From a virus: a stretch of DNA of 36,965 nucleotides. Of this stretch, positions 26,255-33,433 are shown one piece after another (the first letter of the stretch is position 1; the number at the start of each line of letters is the position of its first letter). Position numbers and translations under genes: made by a program. The stretch covers positions 1 to 36,965 of the IMG/VR virus record IMGVR_UViG_3300012936_000057; one strand, 5' to 3'. The notes beneath the pieces are model-generated. The model had not been told where the DNA came from, made no database searches, and saw nothing but the letters and a program-made list of their open reading frames with translations.

Positions 26255-26953
26255 ATGATAAAAGAAAAACTATATCTTTATGATGATAATATTGGTCATA
26301 TTAGCTTAGTTCAATGTATGGGTGACGAGCTAACAATTGTAAATGCTGCTAGAGTATCTTTTGGCGTTGAAAAATCATCTTTAGATGATAGAGATAAAAA
26401 GCTAATTAAGTATCTTATTAAGCATAAGCATACATCTACTCTAGAACATAATTTTGCAACATTTATTATTGAAGTTCCTTTGTTTATTCGTTCACAGCAT
26501 CATCGTCATCGAACGTGGAGTTATAATGAAATTAGTAGAAGATATACTGACTATGACATGAAGTTTTACTATCCAAGTTCTTTTAGAATGCAATCAAAGT
26601 CAAATCGACAAGCTTCTACAGATGATTTAGTAAATCCTAATATTTTAGCAGGTTTTGGTGGTGAAGGTAAAGCGTCTGATATTATTCATGAACATTGCGA
26701 GGATTCACTAGAATTATATAATCAACTAGTTAAAAAAGGTGTTTCTAGAGAACAAGCACGAATGATTCTTCCACAAAACCTTTACACAAAATATTACGCA
26801 ACAGCAAACTTAAATAATATACTAAAGTTTATTGACTTAAGAATACATGAAGGGGCACAATGGGAGATTCAACAATTAGCAAAAAGCATGCTAGAAATTA
26901 TAGTAAATATTTGGCCTTACGCAACTAACGTGTATAGAGATTTAAGAGTTTAA
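26255..26953 (+). CDS. thyX: Flavin-dependent thymidylate synthase
   Basis: This 232-aa ThyX makes dTMP from dUMP using methylene-tetrahydrofolate and FAD/NADPH. The defining motif RHRTWSYNEISRRY (residues 84-97) fits RHRxxSxNExSxR exactly. KHTSTLEHNFATF upstream and GVSREQARMILPQNLYTKYY downstream match the family, and LRIHEGAQWEIQQLA is the usual 'R---AQ-EI---A' end. It is a canonical copy, in contrast to the altered paralogue at 30148. It lies in an operon of small unknown genes and a MazG-like gene, and works with the dUTPase at 21226, which supplies dUMP. Confidence 0.93.
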   Translation: MIKEKLYLYDDNIGHISLVQCMGDELTIVNAARVSFGVEKSSLDDRDKKLIKYLIKHKHTSTLEHNFATFIIEVPLFIRSQHHRHRTWSYNEISRRYTDYDMKFYYPSSFRMQSKSNRQASTDDLVNPNILAGFGGEGKASDIIHEHCEDSLELYNQLVKKGVSREQARMILPQNLYTKYYATANLNNILKFIDLRIHEGAQWEIQQLAKSMLEIIVNIWPYATNVYRDLRV

Positions 26954-27360: not shown

Positions 27361-27600
27361 ATGTCTCATAGATTAGATGATAATACAATTGCGCACTTTG
27401 TGAAATTAATTCAAATGGCAATACTTTCAGGAACTGACATTACAGATAACTTTAGACTAGTAGAACTTATTATCAAGGATAACAAAGTTTGTATTGATGA
27501 AAATTATTTATTACAATTTAATGAGAATATTGATAAATTAGTTGCACAAATAGAGCAAGAAGACGTGTCTAATCAAGAAAAAGGGGTTTTTGATGGCTGA
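27361..27600 (+). CDS. Small hypothetical protein
   Basis: This is a 79-aa acidic, helical protein (HFVKLIQMAILSGTDITDNF, then IDENYLLQFNENIDKLVAQI) with no recognised family, signal or membrane segment. The start is firm: AAGGAG at 27351-27356 precedes ATG 27361. It overlaps the MazG-like gene by eight bases, and its last codons carry that gene's AAAAGGGG site, so the two are co-translated. It may be a partner of the MazG-like enzyme. Confidence 0.6.
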   Translation: MSHRLDDNTIAHFVKLIQMAILSGTDITDNFRLVELIIKDNKVCIDENYLLQFNENIDKLVAQIEQEDVSNQEKGVFDG

Positions 27601-27970
27601 CAGGCTAAAAGAAATATTTAAATCTAGAGAAAGCTTTATGAATCTCATTAGAAAACATCACGATGAAGTTTATAAAGAATCATGGCCACTAGATATTTCT
27701 AAAAAGTCTTCTCAAAAAGTCTTGCGAGAAACAGCACTTAAAGGTGTTGAAGAAATGTTTGAGGCTTTAGGTCATTTAAAAAATTGGAAATCACATAGAG
27801 TACATGAAATTCCTGAAGTTGATAAGGAAGAGTTTTTAGAAGAAATAATCGATGCTTTTAACTACTTTTATTCACTAATGATTCTCTCAGGATTTAATGA
27901 AGACGACTTCTATAAAGCTTTTGTTAAAAAAGACAAGATAATTAGAGATAGACTAAGTAATAAGTACTAA
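27593..27970 (+). CDS. MazG-like / all-alpha dUTPase-family nucleotide pyrophosphohydrolase
   Basis: This is a 125-aa helical enzyme of the MazG/dimeric dUTPase superfamily, which turns (d)NTPs into (d)NMPs. ALKGVEEMFEALGHLKNWKS gives the E-E---E first metal helix and the 'K-WK' loop. EEFLEEIIDAFNYFYSLMIL gives the second E-E--D helix. NEDDFYKAFVKKDKIIRDRL is the typical C-terminal helix with K---N-R-R. The length fits the dUTPase_2 type rather than two-domain bacterial MazG. The natural start is ATG 27593 (MADRLKEIF) behind AAAAGGGG. Substrate is inferred; with a trimeric dUTPase also present, dUTP or a host alarmone-related nucleotide are both possible. Confidence 0.75.
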   Translation: MADRLKEIFKSRESFMNLIRKHHDEVYKESWPLDISKKSSQKVLRETALKGVEEMFEALGHLKNWKSHRVHEIPEVDKEEFLEEIIDAFNYFYSLMILSGFNEDDFYKAFVKKDKIIRDRLSNKY

Positions 27971-29114: not shown

Positions 29115-29126
29115 TTAATTAGAGGT
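29104..29126 (+). promoter_or_regulatory. Hairpin sequestering the ribosome-binding site of the MazG-HAD gene
   Basis: CCTCTA (29105-29110), a nine-base AT loop, TAGAGG (29120-29125), with a G-U pair outside. The right arm is the Shine-Dalgarno. The left arm and loop carry the -10 box, so local transcripts lack the left arm while read-through transcripts from the upstream genes would fold it. The architecture matches that at recA, including the CCTCT/AGAGG core. Confidence 0.5.
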
Positions 29127-29130
29127 GAAA

Positions 29131-30078
29131 ATGGATTTAAAAAATTACCTAGAATTACAAGAAAAGTTTTCTAAATATTTCTATGACAAAGACAACATGT
29201 CTTTAAAAGAAAAAGAAGAAATGATAAAAACTCTTTCATTGTCTTTACATAATGAAGTGTCACAAGTAGTTTCTTCAACTAATTATAAATTTTATGATAA
29301 AAAAGAATATAATATTGATAAAGGTAAAATTTTATATAAGTCTGTAGACACATTTAGATATTTATTAGCTTTATTGAATTTATGTGACATTAATGAAAAT
29401 ACTTTTTTAAATGCTTTTAATCATAGAGATAATTACTTGCATAAAAAAGTTAAATATAAAAGTTCAAATAAACCTGTTGTTGTAATTGATATTGATGATG
29501 TTCTGCTTAGCTTTAGATTTACATTCAACGAATGGATTAGAAATAATTATAACGTTTATATTGATGACAATTCTGACCAATATTACTCTTCTATTGCAGT
29601 TAAAGAAATAGGGCTAAGTCCTGAAACAGTTTTTGAAGACTTTATAAAAGAAGATGGTTTACTATCTATTCCTGCGCTTAAAAACGCTTCAGAAATGACT
29701 CGTATGCTTAGTGACTTAGGATATGAAATACAATTACTTACAAGTAGACCAGAGAAAAATTTAAGATGTAAATATCAAACTCTTCAGAGTCTTCTTAACA
29801 GTAGCATTACATTTGATAAACTAAACTTTTCTTTTGAAAAATATATTTGGCTAGCAAAACAAAAATTCTATCTAGACGGAAGATTTAAATTTGCTATTGA
29901 TGATTCACCAAAACATACAAGTGAATATGCAAATCATGATGTGCCTGTAGTAATGCCAATTTATGAATATAATAAGTCTATTTTAGAACATCCGAAAAGA
30001 AAAGATTATATTATTGATACTTCTTTAGAAAATATGCACTCTAGAGTTTTAGAAATAGCTAATAGTTTTCTACATTAA
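29131..30078 (+). CDS. Fusion of a MazG/dUTPase_2-like domain with an HAD-family 5'-nucleotidase
   Basis: This is a 315-aa protein. Residues 25-105 look like a MazG/dUTPase_2 domain (LHNEVSQVVSSTNYKFYD, then KSVDTFRYLLALLNLCDINE), although the second E---D motif keeps only the Asp (D73). Residues 115-300 are an HAD phosphatase of the 5'(3')-deoxyribonucleotidase type: motif I VVIDIDDVLLSF (D120, D122), motif II LLTSRP (T204/S205) and motif IV FAIDDSPKH (D257/D258). A complete enzyme would take dNTP to dNMP and then to the nucleoside; loss of the Glu suggests the first domain may only bind. I choose ATG 29131, which fits the Shine-Dalgarno AGAGG, over GTG 29125, which lies inside it. Confidence 0.7.
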   Translation: MDLKNYLELQEKFSKYFYDKDNMSLKEKEEMIKTLSLSLHNEVSQVVSSTNYKFYDKKEYNIDKGKILYKSVDTFRYLLALLNLCDINENTFLNAFNHRDNYLHKKVKYKSSNKPVVVIDIDDVLLSFRFTFNEWIRNNYNVYIDDNSDQYYSSIAVKEIGLSPETVFEDFIKEDGLLSIPALKNASEMTRMLSDLGYEIQLLTSRPEKNLRCKYQTLQSLLNSSITFDKLNFSFEKYIWLAKQKFYLDGRFKFAIDDSPKHTSEYANHDVPVVMPIYEYNKSILEHPKRKDYIIDTSLENMHSRVLEIANSFLH

Positions 30079-30147: not shown

Positions 30148-31125
30148 ATGCCGTTAAATAATAATATTAACCCAATTACTCTTCCAATGGACCTTAAGTT
30201 TGGACAGTCTTGCAATACAGCATTTCAAAACAATTTGGATGCACTTAAGGTAGAGTTAATTGATGCACCTACAAGAGAACAAGCTCATGATGTTGCATGG
30301 TGTTATACAAAAGCAACTTGGGCTGATGACCCTTGGCAGTCTTCTCCTGACAATGTTTCTGTACGTGATAAGTCACTTAATCTTATTGATGTACTTAACT
30401 TTAGAGCTCTTCCTACCCCTATGGAATGTCTTGGTTTTACGTTTAGAATTAGTGGTATTTCCTTACAGACTGTAACACACCTTATTCGCCATCGTGCAGG
30501 TTCATTTGCAGCACAATGCACAGGTGATCGCGATCTTCGTGATGATCCAGCAGTTGTTCCAGAGTCAATTGAAAACTCTCCAGAATTTTACGAAAGATAT
30601 CGAAATCTTGTTTTTGAAACAAAGCAGCTTTACGCTGATATGGTTGATTCAAAAGTTGTATCAATGATGGATGCTCGTGTCATTCTTCCTAAATGTCTTA
30701 CATCTTTTTATTACGCAAGATTTAATATTAAGGATTTAATTGGTCTAGTTCGACAACGTCAAGATGTACAAATTCAGCCTGAAGTTGATAATATTCTTGC
30801 AACTCAAATGGCGCGTCTTATTTGTGAGCGTATTCCAGAGTTTTCAACTGTCCTTGACTTTGATCGTCCTGATGTGCATTATATTAAGACTTTTCGTGTA
30901 AAGGAAGGAGATGTTTGGACAAGCAAAGGAACAAACCTTTATCAGCCTGAGCCAAAAAATGACTCGTTTGATTATCACGAGCAAGATACAATTTATCCTT
31001 GTCGTCGTGAAGCTCTTAACGGAACAGATGGCCAACCTTTTCAAAAGTCTTTTACACGCCTATGGGATGCTGATGTTACAGCAATTAATGATATTCGTAC
31101 AACACTAAATGAGGAGAATGCTTAA
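30148..31125 (+). CDS. Divergent ThyX paralogue with altered active-site motif
   Basis: This 325-aa protein clearly has the ThyX fold but not its full signature. TVTHLIRHRAGSF (residues 108-120) matches 'q-lRHRtgSf', keeping R114-H115-R116 and S119. The next part, AAQCTGDRDLRD (121-132), replaces the usual NE-SGR: Asn and Glu are Ala, a Cys (C124) appears and two residues are inserted. DARVILPKCLTSFYYARFN and IGLVRQRQDVQIQPEVDNI match the ThyX C-terminal half. The protein is about 100 residues longer than the canonical ThyX at 26255, with a C-terminal extension from about 240 containing two further conserved-looking blocks. It may methylate or hydroxymethylate a pyrimidine other than dUMP. 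It is first in an operon with a deoxyribosyltransferase-like gene and a glycosylase gene. Codon use is less AT-biased than in the ORFs before it. Confidence 0.7.
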   Translation: MPLNNNINPITLPMDLKFGQSCNTAFQNNLDALKVELIDAPTREQAHDVAWCYTKATWADDPWQSSPDNVSVRDKSLNLIDVLNFRALPTPMECLGFTFRISGISLQTVTHLIRHRAGSFAAQCTGDRDLRDDPAVVPESIENSPEFYERYRNLVFETKQLYADMVDSKVVSMMDARVILPKCLTSFYYARFNIKDLIGLVRQRQDVQIQPEVDNILATQMARLICERIPEFSTVLDFDRPDVHYIKTFRVKEGDVWTSKGTNLYQPEPKNDSFDYHEQDTIYPCRREALNGTDGQPFQKSFTRLWDADVTAINDIRTTLNEENA

Positions 31126-31126
31126 T

Positions 31127-31606
31127 ATGTCTAATATTATTTCTTTACCTGGAGATCGTCAATGGAAAATTTATCTTGCGAGCGGATGGTTTTCACCAGA
31201 AGCTTCAAAAGAGTTAGATGAACTTGAAGAGTACTTTGGTAACTTAGCACAAATTGACTTGGCGGCTCCAAGACAAATATTTGTTTGTCCTCCAAATGCT
31301 CCGCAACATGTTCAAGAGCAAACATTTCAAGGAAATCTAGAACATATTAAGACAGCAGACTTTGTTTTTGTAAATACACGTGATAAAGATATTGGAACTA
31401 TTTGGGAAGCTGGATATGCATATGCACATGGTAAACCTATTGTATATTATTGTGCAGGTCTTCCTCCTAGCGCTAAATTTAATCTAATGCTAGCAAAAAG
31501 TGGAATTAAAGTTTGTACAAGTATGGACCAACTAACTGATTATATGGATAGATGTTTTGCAGGAAAAAGCCTTCTTGTTGAGCCTTACAGCTTGGCAATC
31601 GAGTAA
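31127..31606 (+). CDS. Nucleoside 2-deoxyribosyltransferase-like protein
   Basis: This is a 159-aa protein of the nucleoside 2-deoxyribosyltransferase/DUF4406-type fold. WKIYLASGWFSPEA is the first strand and substrate loop. FQGNLEHIKTADFVFVNTRD is the 'd---i--aD-vvan-d' segment. DIGTIWEAGYAYAHGKPIVY carries 'GT-wEiGyA-a-gkPv', with the Glu expected to be the nucleophile. Such enzymes swap or hydrolyse bases on deoxyribosides or deoxyribonucleotides. The start is ATG 31127, two bases after the thyX2 stop, with GAGGAG (31111-31116) as Shine-Dalgarno; an upstream ATG at 31118 is less well placed. Whether it acts on nucleosides or nucleotides cannot be told. Confidence 0.75.
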   Translation: MSNIISLPGDRQWKIYLASGWFSPEASKELDELEEYFGNLAQIDLAAPRQIFVCPPNAPQHVQEQTFQGNLEHIKTADFVFVNTRDKDIGTIWEAGYAYAHGKPIVYYCAGLPPSAKFNLMLAKSGIKVCTSMDQLTDYMDRCFAGKSLLVEPYSLAIE

Positions 31607-31608
31607 AA

Positions 31609-32409
31609 ATGCCTGAAGGACCTGAAGTTAAGTTATATGTTGATAAGCTAAATCAGCAATATGCAAATAAAACTATTAAGGAAGTTAATGTAATTAGTGG
31701 AAGGTATCTTAAAAAACCTATTCAAAACTTAAATGTTTTAAGTGGACAAAAACTTCTTTCAGTTAATTGCAAGGGTAAATTTATTTGGTTCGAGCTCCAG
31801 CAAAATATTATATTTAGTACCTTAGGTATGACAGGTAGCTGGTCAAGAGTAAGTAAAACTCATTCTAGGATTAAAATAACTTTTAGTGACGATGACTATG
31901 TTTACTTTAATGATATAAGAAACTTTGGAACTTTTCATATAAAGGAAAGAGAAGACTTAATAAAAAAAATTAAGACAATCGGCCCAGACATGTTAAATAA
32001 TCCGCCTCATAATTTTGTTGAAATTATGAGAAAGAGAGACAATAAAAACATATGTGAAGTTTTAATGAAGCAAAATATTATAAGTGGTGTAGGGAATTAT
32101 ATTAAAGCTGAAAGTTTATGGCTGGCAAAAATTAATCCGCATTCAAAAATTAAAAACCTTTCAGATAAAGACTTAATGAGACTAGAGTTAGCTATACTAC
32201 AAGTGATAAGAGAATCTTATAAAAGTCAAGGTGCATCACTTAAAACTTATACAAATTTCGATAATGAAGAAGGCGAAGCAACAGACTTTTTTAATGTTTA
32301 TAGTAAAAAAATTGATACGCTAGGTAATCAAGTAGTCAAAGAAGAGACTCCAGATAAAAGAACTACACATTGGTCTCCTGTTAGACAAGTATGTGGTGTT
32401 GTAAATTAG
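31609..32409 (+). CDS. Fpg/Nei-family DNA glycosylase with a zincless finger
   Basis: This is a 266-aa base-excision glycosylase/AP lyase. The N-terminus MPEGPEV supplies the catalytic Pro (P2) and Glu (E3) after Met removal. K57 (CKGKFIW) fits the conserved DNA-contacting Lys. FSTLGMTGSW and YVYFNDIRNFGTF are family signatures. SGVGNYIKAESLW with N163 is the helix-two-turn-helix. The finger reads FFNVYSKKIDTLGNQV to RTTHWSPVRQ: R251 is at the place of the key finger Arg, but all four zinc Cys are gone (Ser and Arg in the last pair). Zincless fingers occur in NEIL1 and mimivirus Nei. It should remove oxidised pyrimidines or purines; with thyX2 beside it, a modified-base substrate is possible. 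It starts two bases after the previous stop. Confidence 0.88.
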   Translation: MPEGPEVKLYVDKLNQQYANKTIKEVNVISGRYLKKPIQNLNVLSGQKLLSVNCKGKFIWFELQQNIIFSTLGMTGSWSRVSKTHSRIKITFSDDDYVYFNDIRNFGTFHIKEREDLIKKIKTIGPDMLNNPPHNFVEIMRKRDNKNICEVLMKQNIISGVGNYIKAESLWLAKINPHSKIKNLSDKDLMRLELAILQVIRESYKSQGASLKTYTNFDNEEGEATDFFNVYSKKIDTLGNQVVKEETPDKRTTHWSPVRQVCGVVN

Positions 32410-32446: not shown

Positions 32447-33433
32447 ATGAAGATTGCTGTTACAGGTGAAACCGGTTTTATTGGAAGAAATTTGCCTAAG
32501 TCAATTGAAAAATTTGGTCATGAATTTGTTTCTTTAAATGATTACAAAAATTTCGATAGTAGAAGACCAAAAACTGGCGAGCCTTGCGTTTATAGTAATA
32601 GCGAAAAAACTTGGATTAAAGCTTTTTACGACTTAGATATTGACGTTGTTATTCATAACGCAGCTGTTGTAGGAACTGATGTTGTTGCACTAAACTCTTC
32701 TGATTCAACATTAAGTAATGTTGCAGGAACACATAATATTGTTCGTGCAGCAAATGCTTGTGACGTAGCAGTTTGTTATACAGGAACAACAGTTATTTAT
32801 GATACAGCTAGGTATCAAACAAATAAAATTGTTGAAAACTCTGCTAGAAAGCCAACAACACTTTATGGCTGTCAAAAGGTTGCTGCTGAAGATATTATTC
32901 GTGGTATGTGTGAAAAGTGGAATATTGTTAGACCACTGTTTGCATTTGGTGGAATTGGTGACATGAACTCTCTTATTGCAAAAGGTCTATATTCAGCACT
33001 TAATGGTAGACTTAATATTAAAATGTTTCTCGATCCAATGAAAGTTAAAGATTATCTTTATGTTGAAGATTTTTGTGATGGTGTAATGTCTGTTATTTCA
33101 CATGACCTTTGGCAAGATGACTTTAATGTTGCAGCAGAAACGCCTTGTGTAACTCGTGACATTGTCAATATTATGCAAGAAATTAGTGGCTTAGACATGC
33201 AGGAGGTTTTCTCCTGGCAACCTCAAACTGATTATCTTGGTAACCATAGGCTTTCATCAAACAAGATTCGTAAACAGACAAATTGGCAGCCTCAATATAG
33301 CCTTCGGAGTGGTATTCAAGAAGTTTGGGACAGTTTTAATCTAGATAAAACAGATGACTATAATCCTTTATTACATCTAGATAAAGCTGAAGTTTCACAA
33401 TTTGATTTAGAAAGTCATTTTCCTAAAGTTTAA
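32447..33433 (+). CDS. NAD-dependent sugar epimerase/dehydratase (extended SDR)
   Basis: This is a 328-aa extended short-chain dehydrogenase. The N-terminal Rossmann motif is VTGETGFIGRN (G-x-x-G-x-x-G). VVIHNAAVVG is the 'D-ViH-Aa' segment. LYGCQKVAAEDI gives the catalytic Y-x-x-x-K. KVKDYLYVEDFCDGV is the 'R-f-yV-D-a' block, and the C-terminal IRKQTNWQPQYSLRSGIQEV is typical of the GDP-fucose synthase/UDP-glucose-4-epimerase group. It should act on a nucleotide-sugar, for host surface change, virion glycosylation or a sugar used to decorate DNA. No glycosyltransferase is seen in the window. It has its own promoter and ends 16 bases before a two-codon mini-ORF. Confidence 0.82.
   Translation: MKIAVTGETGFIGRNLPKSIEKFGHEFVSLNDYKNFDSRRPKTGEPCVYSNSEKTWIKAFYDLDIDVVIHNAAVVGTDVVALNSSDSTLSNVAGTHNIVRAANACDVAVCYTGTTVIYDTARYQTNKIVENSARKPTTLYGCQKVAAEDIIRGMCEKWNIVRPLFAFGGIGDMNSLIAKGLYSALNGRLNIKMFLDPMKVKDYLYVEDFCDGVMSVISHDLWQDDFNVAAETPCVTRDIVNIMQEISGLDMQEVFSWQPQTDYLGNHRLSSNKIRKQTNWQPQYSLRSGIQEVWDSFNLDKTDDYNPLLHLDKAEVSQFDLESHFPKV

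Follow-up and report, generated by a model that had tools for sequence, protein, structure and literature searches.

A divergent ThyX-fold protein of viruses with a rebuilt active-site loop, encoded beside a nucleoside deoxyribosyltransferase gene

We describe a second Thy1/ThyX-fold protein, here called ThyX2, encoded downstream of a canonical ThyX in the window, that is, the whole 36,965-nucleotide stretch of DNA that was analysed (positions 1 to 36,965 of the IMG/VR virus record IMGVR_UViG_3300012936_000057). ThyX2 belongs to a clade that is present in more than 170 viral contigs, in Geobacillus phage GR1 and in the Bacillus subtilis plasmid pBS32. We give about an even chance to the reading that ThyX2 is a flavin-dependent enzyme which modifies C5 of a uracil deoxynucleotide to something other than ordinary dTMP, as part of a nucleotide-remodelling pathway of the phage. 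Phage "thymidylate synthases" get annotated by fold alone, and here is a clade common in ocean virus contigs that has kept the substrate-side arginines, has exchanged conserved catalytic positions and has a nucleoside 2-deoxyribosyltransferase-family (NDT) gene alongside. If a modified pyrimidine is made, the ThyA-type hydroxymethylases already known would be joined by a flavin-based route, and a DNA modification that has gone unnoticed, or an attack on the nucleotide pool, would be widespread. Because pBS32 carries a copy, the question can be tested in B. subtilis now. The features of the window are listed in Table 1.

Table 1. Features of the window around ThyX2 (positions are those of the window)
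Feature	Position	Strand	Evidence and remarks
Canonical ThyX	26255..26953	+	Pfam Thy1 177.9 bits; TIGR02170 180.9 bits vs cut-off 87.9; RHRTWSYNEISRRY intact
MazG-like NTP pyrophosphohydrolase, start probably ATG 27593	27590..27970	+	phrog_12184, E 2.8e-16; ExxE..ExxD motif
Two-domain protein: MazG/dUTPase_2-like N-terminus, HAD 5'-nucleotidase-like C-terminus	29125..30078	+	Weak Pfam matches
ThyX2, divergent Thy1/ThyX-fold protein, 325 aa	30148..31125	+	Open frame, Pfam Thy1, AlphaFold and Foldseek, dN/dS
Rebuilt active-site loop of ThyX2, R114 to R128	30487..30531	+	Kept with minor variation in 72/72 distinct homologues
Cys124 codon, at the position of T. maritima ThyX Ser88	30517..30519	+	HMMER alignments to PDB chain 3g4c; invariant column
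C-terminal extension past the Thy1 domain, residues 236-325	30853..31122	+	Conservation, pLDDT
NDT-family protein, likely start ATG 31127	31109..31606	+	Pfam PF05014, 55.2 bits vs 28.8
Fpg/Nei-family DNA glycosylase	31609..32409	+	Pfam Fapy_DNA_glyco and H2TH over cut-off; pathway role putative
NAD-dependent sugar epimerase/dehydratase (extended SDR)	32447..33433	+	Pfam Epimerase, 98.6 bits; pathway role putative

The reading frame of ThyX2 is real, and its position, translation and length are as the first-pass annotation had them. ThyX2 matched Pfam Thy1 (PF02511) with 72.4 bits against a cut-off of 24.8, but reached 45.6 bits where the NCBI equivalog model TIGR02170 demands 87.9. An AlphaFold model of the protein (pLDDT 91.8, pTM 0.88) returned 154 PDB matches in Foldseek at E <= 0.001, with a best E of 4.9e-10 and TM-scores by target of 0.63-0.81; the matches listed were ThyX-family structures, which places ThyX2 in the fold of the solved ThyX proteins, and the best among them included PolB and atypical ThyX proteins. 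Among close copies dN/dS was about 0.04-0.08, a sign of strong purifying selection, and this value, together with the occurrence of ThyX2 in more than 170 contigs, ruled out a sequencing or frame artefact as well as a decaying gene. An extra C-terminal stretch of 80 residues had been noted before; the extension is present, but it is about 90 residues long, and it is ordered (pLDDT about 89-98). Residues 236-300 are conserved like the core (0.71 vs 0.72-0.73) and, judged by this conservation, belong to the enzyme.

The active-site loop, R114-H-R116-AGSFAAQ-C124-TGD-R128, was already described correctly (as AAQCTGDR) in the first-pass annotation, and the translation agrees. The canonical RHR-X7-S has become RHR-X7-C in ThyX2, a spacing that sets C124 exactly on Ser88 of Thermotoga maritima ThyX. 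The HMMER alignment also pairs C124 with the motif serine, and the best PDB match by sequence, chain 3g4c, itself has a cysteine at this position. MAFFT gapped the loop against canonical ThyX, and for this reason the placement relies on the HMMER alignments and on the exact RHR-X7 spacing. When the proteins were inspected for the full ThyX motif, in which Asn/Gln-Glu precedes the Ser of RHRX7S and Arg-Tyr follows it, the canonical copies carried it and ThyX2 did not. The loop is kept in all 72 distinct proteins of the ThyX2 family, and the C124 column is invariant in the family alignment. Part of this set was gathered with a pattern derived from the loop, and the search that yielded 173 matches used that pattern, so the invariance of the cysteine rests on the other searches: relatives obtained with patterns outside the loop, or by tblastn (GR1, pBS32), also keep the loop, and the most divergent member (L145), which reads RYR..S..ADCSGDK, still has the cysteine. 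C124 may act as a nucleophile that adds to pyrimidine C6, as in ThyA-type enzymes, or it may equally be a simple replacement of Ser88 near the flavin, since R174, which activates uracil in ThyX without a nucleophile, is invariant in ThyX2.

In order to compare the active sites, 66 ThyX2 and 51 canonical ThyX sequences were aligned and read in T. maritima numbering. Four positions switch from one invariant residue to another, namely S30 to T, H53 to L, Q75 to H and E144 to M. The dUMP residues R147 and R174 are unchanged, their equivalents R177 and R204 of ThyX2 being invariant in 66/66. On the folate side, His53 is Leu in all 66 proteins, and no Tyr equivalent to Tyr91 stands at the candidate positions D127 or D/W/F129 in the ThyX2 sequences read, where the alignment after C124 is uncertain. 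The flavin-contact position N169 is G in ThyX2, and flavin-contact positions also vary in canonical proteins. In ThyX, R174 assists deprotonation of uracil N3, methylene transfer is helped by Ser88 and Tyr91, and His53 makes a stacking contact with folate or flavin (PMC8316439; PMC11940539); mutation of Tyr91 in the T. maritima enzyme slows flavin oxidation about 1000-fold (PMC11940539). With R147 and R174 unchanged, His53 lost and no Tyr91 placeable, these published roles suggest that the pyrimidine side of ThyX2 is retained and its one-carbon side changed. The R174 equivalent would be the sole pointer in the sequence on whether dUMP or dCMP is the substrate. Thus, ThyX2 shares with canonical ThyX/FDTS (PF02511, TIGR02170; T. 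maritima TM0449) the fold, RHR, the two arginines and E58, and it differs from it in RHRX7C, in the change of N85-E86 to AA, in TGDR after the Cys, in the switched H53, Q75 and E144 and the missing Tyr91, in about 90 additional C-terminal residues, and in falling below the TIGR02170 cut-off.

Viral contigs were searched with patterns, which gave 21 ThyX2 loci (20 full-length members) and then 173 confirmed matches, the best 80 of which were kept, with smaller sets added for the branches of GR1 and L020. By tblastn, ThyX2 was found at about 45% identity in GR1 as well as in 36 Bacillus plasmids, among them pBS32 of B. subtilis NCIB 3610. In the tree, ThyX2 forms one clade with support of 100/100, and about 5.3 changes per site lie along the stem that separates it from canonical ThyX, which rules out a recent duplication of the neighbouring ThyX. 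Hence the earlier suggestion of a second copy free to take another job stands in one half: a functionally separate ThyX relative agrees with the canonical ThyX kept alongside and with the switched invariant residues, whereas the duplication does not agree with an old separate clade, and across so long a stem the word "paralogue" is correct only loosely. Two pattern scans of genome contigs found no cellular ThyX2; such scans miss relatives, since tblastn did find the pBS32-type plasmids. The Thy1 proteins of Pseudomonas PB1-type and Xanthomonas Carpasina-type phages were considered as close relatives and rejected, as they share 25-27% identity only and have another motif (RTRTGAYQQETSRA). In these odd Thy1 proteins (L055:6019-8560, L056:5854-6771) RTR replaces RHR, and in XcP1 a FabG-like SDR gene lies two genes past the odd Thy1.

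The claim of a canonical ThyX 3.2 kb upstream of ThyX2 was borne out by both models (Table 1). A canonical ThyX also occurs in 12 of the 13 ThyX2 contigs over 100 kb, so that dTMP supply is covered there, and ThyA was absent from the 22 ThyX2-bearing records searched. In the complete GR1 genome ThyX2 is the only Thy1 gene, and there is no ThyA.

The NDT gene lies directly after ThyX2, or within about 1.6 kb of it, in nearly all of 90 loci. NDT was found in 29 of 30 ThyX2-bearing records vs 1 of 25 IMG/VR contigs that have canonical ThyX alone (nominal Fisher 2e-13, which is no true probability because the records are related); most contigs in these counts are fragments, and the search covered named gene families. 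The single ThyX2 record without NDT is a 24-kb fragment. The link holds across different gene orders, with NDT adjacent downstream, about 5-6 kb off (GR1, L147), or upstream as a kinase-NDT fusion (L145). This ThyX2-NDT gene link is new here; we found no account of a ThyX-NDT pair in phages in the open-access literature, outside which most subscription papers lie. In the fusion, a TMP-kinase-like domain and NDT form one protein, encoded two genes upstream of ThyX2 (L145:6551-7501).

The best PDB match of the NDT neighbour is N-deoxyribosyltransferase, and DxGxxxE, with the catalytic Glu, and the FNLM-type motif were present in 72/72 sequences checked, which assigns it to the family. We take these two motifs to mean activity at the nucleoside level. 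DmtZ, DNPH1/Rcl and MilB are members of the same NDT family; unlike the monophosphate hydrolases, the ThyX2-linked NDT keeps both motifs and has its best matches among nucleoside-level transferases.

Phosphohydrolase and kinase genes are often found near ThyX2, the MazG-like and MazG-HAD/NT5C-like genes on its upstream side. The two-domain product of the window matches dUTPase_2 (residues 2-112) and a HAD family weakly in Pfam, and has a DIDDV motif; its homologues match NT5C just below cut-off, and its homology cluster occurs in 84/90 loci. A homologue of the MazG-like protein exceeds the dUTPase_2 cut-off. The epimerase/dehydratase is a conserved neighbour in 68/90 loci. DNA glycosylases also recur beside the module, the Fpg/Nei type in 45/90 loci and an HhH-GPD type (L127:4978-5442) in 13/90. 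Two large ThyX2 contigs contain a gene of the IMP dehydrogenase/GMP reductase family, one by Pfam (L154:9912-10955) and one by similarity (L163:16375-17436), and an ORF on a phage contig (L147:2734-3750) resembles glutamine synthetase by eye only.

In GR1 and its relatives the cluster contains NDT, a YfbR-like nucleotidase and a TMP-kinase-like gene, with a nitroreductase in some. In GR1 and four relatives this cluster also includes an alpha-glucosyltransferase-family gene. This family is absent from the marine ThyX2 contigs, and it is absent from L144, whose ThyX2 equals that of pBS32; a general link between ThyX2 and DNA alpha-glucosyltransferase was dropped, as only GR1 and these four relatives have the gene. 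No known hypermodification gene other than the GR1-group glucosyltransferase was found, the marine contigs being searched for that family, and the GR1 paper contains no restriction data for the phage.

The near-constant company of nucleotide-recycling genes suggests that the product of ThyX2 is other than ordinary thymine. We infer that ThyX2 uses flavin, that its substrate is a uracil nucleotide and its product not thymine, and that its use of folate is lost or changed, and we likewise infer every step of the following pathway. MazG-like and nucleotidase enzymes would strip a canonical deoxynucleotide, NDT would swap or remove bases at the deoxynucleoside level, and the TMP-kinase-like enzyme found in relatives would rephosphorylate; ThyX2 would attach a carbon group to a uracil deoxynucleotide at C5 and so give a modified pyrimidine precursor. 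We favour this C5-modifying reading because of the canonical ThyX alongside, the switched invariant residues, the NDT link and the GR1-group glucosyltransferase, and because there are precedents, namely phage SP-15, PolB and DmtZ, with MilB also to be listed. The non-thymine product implied by the first-pass annotation accordingly gains from the neighbourhood (NDT, MazG, 5'-nucleotidase and kinase, and in GR1 the alpha-glucosyltransferase), while modification of the virion DNA itself is hypothetical. Against the C5-modifying reading, plain salvage would also account for nucleotidases, MazG and NDT, the marine contigs and L144 lack the glucosyltransferase, the SP-15 protein gp130 lacks the motif, and N169 has drifted.

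These precedents resemble ThyX2 and its loci to different degrees. PolB is a ThyX paralogue that acts on UMP and dUMP in polyoxin biosynthesis (PMC5954106). It is related to ThyX but has taken on another role, as we propose for ThyX2, and it is the top Foldseek match (PDB 4p5a/4p5b), but it serves a bacterial antibiotic pathway and shows 18% identity in the Foldseek alignment. The DNA of Bacillus phage SP-15 contains dihydroxypentyluracil, a C5-alkylated uracil, and the phage has two Thy1 genes, the role of gp130 being a hypothesis of the authors only (PMC5977210). In SP-15 (L169:28730-31911) we observed the NDT gp127, the FabG-like SDR gp129 and the very divergent Thy1 gp130 together, so that, as in the ThyX2 loci, a second phage Thy1 lies near NDT and SDR genes. 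In contrast to ThyX2, gp130 has 413 residues and no RHR..AQCTGDR motif; it was rejected as a homologue with the ThyX2 loop, and its Thy1 domain may be rearranged. Among NDT-family enzymes, DmtZ produces a modified dNMP in Z-DNA phages (PMC12884076), and MilB acts on hydroxymethyl-CMP (PMC4081090).

A bolder form of the chemistry, to which we give a slim chance, is that ThyX2 would be a new flavin-dependent C5-alkylase that uses an aldehyde other than CH2THF, with help from C124, to make a base not yet described. Reduced FAD would then take up the aldehyde, possibly a sugar freed by the linked NDT, and pass it to a uracil deoxynucleotide. There are chemical precedents for this: T. maritima ThyX accepts free formaldehyde (PMC8316439), and a paper cited in PMC5977210 reports, by its title, a ribose label in the dihydroxypentyl chain of SP-15 uracil.

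The main rival to the C5-modifying reading, possible though clearly less probable than it, is that ThyX2 is a divergent ordinary thymidylate synthase converting dUMP to dTMP, with the cysteine and loop as another solution to the same reaction. Database records do annotate ThyX2 as FAD-dependent thymidylate synthase, the fold is the same, the equivalents of R147 and R174 are invariant, and in GR1, with ThyX2 as its only Thy1 and no ThyA, ThyX2 is possibly the sole thymidylate synthase of the phage. But a canonical ThyX is retained alongside in 12/13 large contigs, and ThyX2 falls short of TIGR02170 (45.6 vs 87.9 bits), has His53 replaced and offers no placeable Tyr91.

We consider it unlikely that ThyX2 is a flavin enzyme of salvage or clearance which transfers no carbon, such as a reductase or oxidase, in a module that does no more than recycle host deoxynucleotides for replication of the phage. 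The mostly catabolic neighbours (MazG, 5'-nucleotidase, NDT) and the changed folate-side residues agree with such a role, yet ordinary salvage would work without another protein of ThyX fold whose new loop is invariant, and the GR1-group clusters have a glucosyltransferase. Least probable, to the point of being improbable, is a non-enzymatic regulator or inhibitor of host or phage ThyX, acting for example via mixed tetramers: ThyX functions as a homotetramer in which the subunits share active sites (PMC8316439), and ThyX2 has altered residues near the site, but its loop and active-site arginines are strongly constrained, unlike in most pseudoenzymes, and GR1 has no other Thy1 gene.

The pBS32 copy of ThyX2 is EJJ34_RS22530 (L266:13962-14936; B. 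subtilis NCIB 3610 plasmid, NZ_CP034485). Genes for RNase H and for a DNA polymerase III-type (PHP domain) protein flank it, each beyond a single small gene, and the NDT, thioredoxin and YfbR-like genes of the plasmid are found about 3-5 kb upstream. Two SigN-dependent operons of pBS32, zpdBCDEF (176-fold) and zpcXYZ (309-fold), have both been labelled nucleotide synthesis, and the plasmid hyperreplication and cell death driven by SigN are unexplained, with depletion of something essential suspected (PMC6751061). The gene order, counted back from the polymerase gene (zpdG), and the operon size fit a location of the ThyX2, NDT and nucleotidase genes within zpdBCDEF/zpcXYZ, and ThyX2 is probably in the operon induced 176-fold by SigN. 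A dUTPase is also carried by pBS32.
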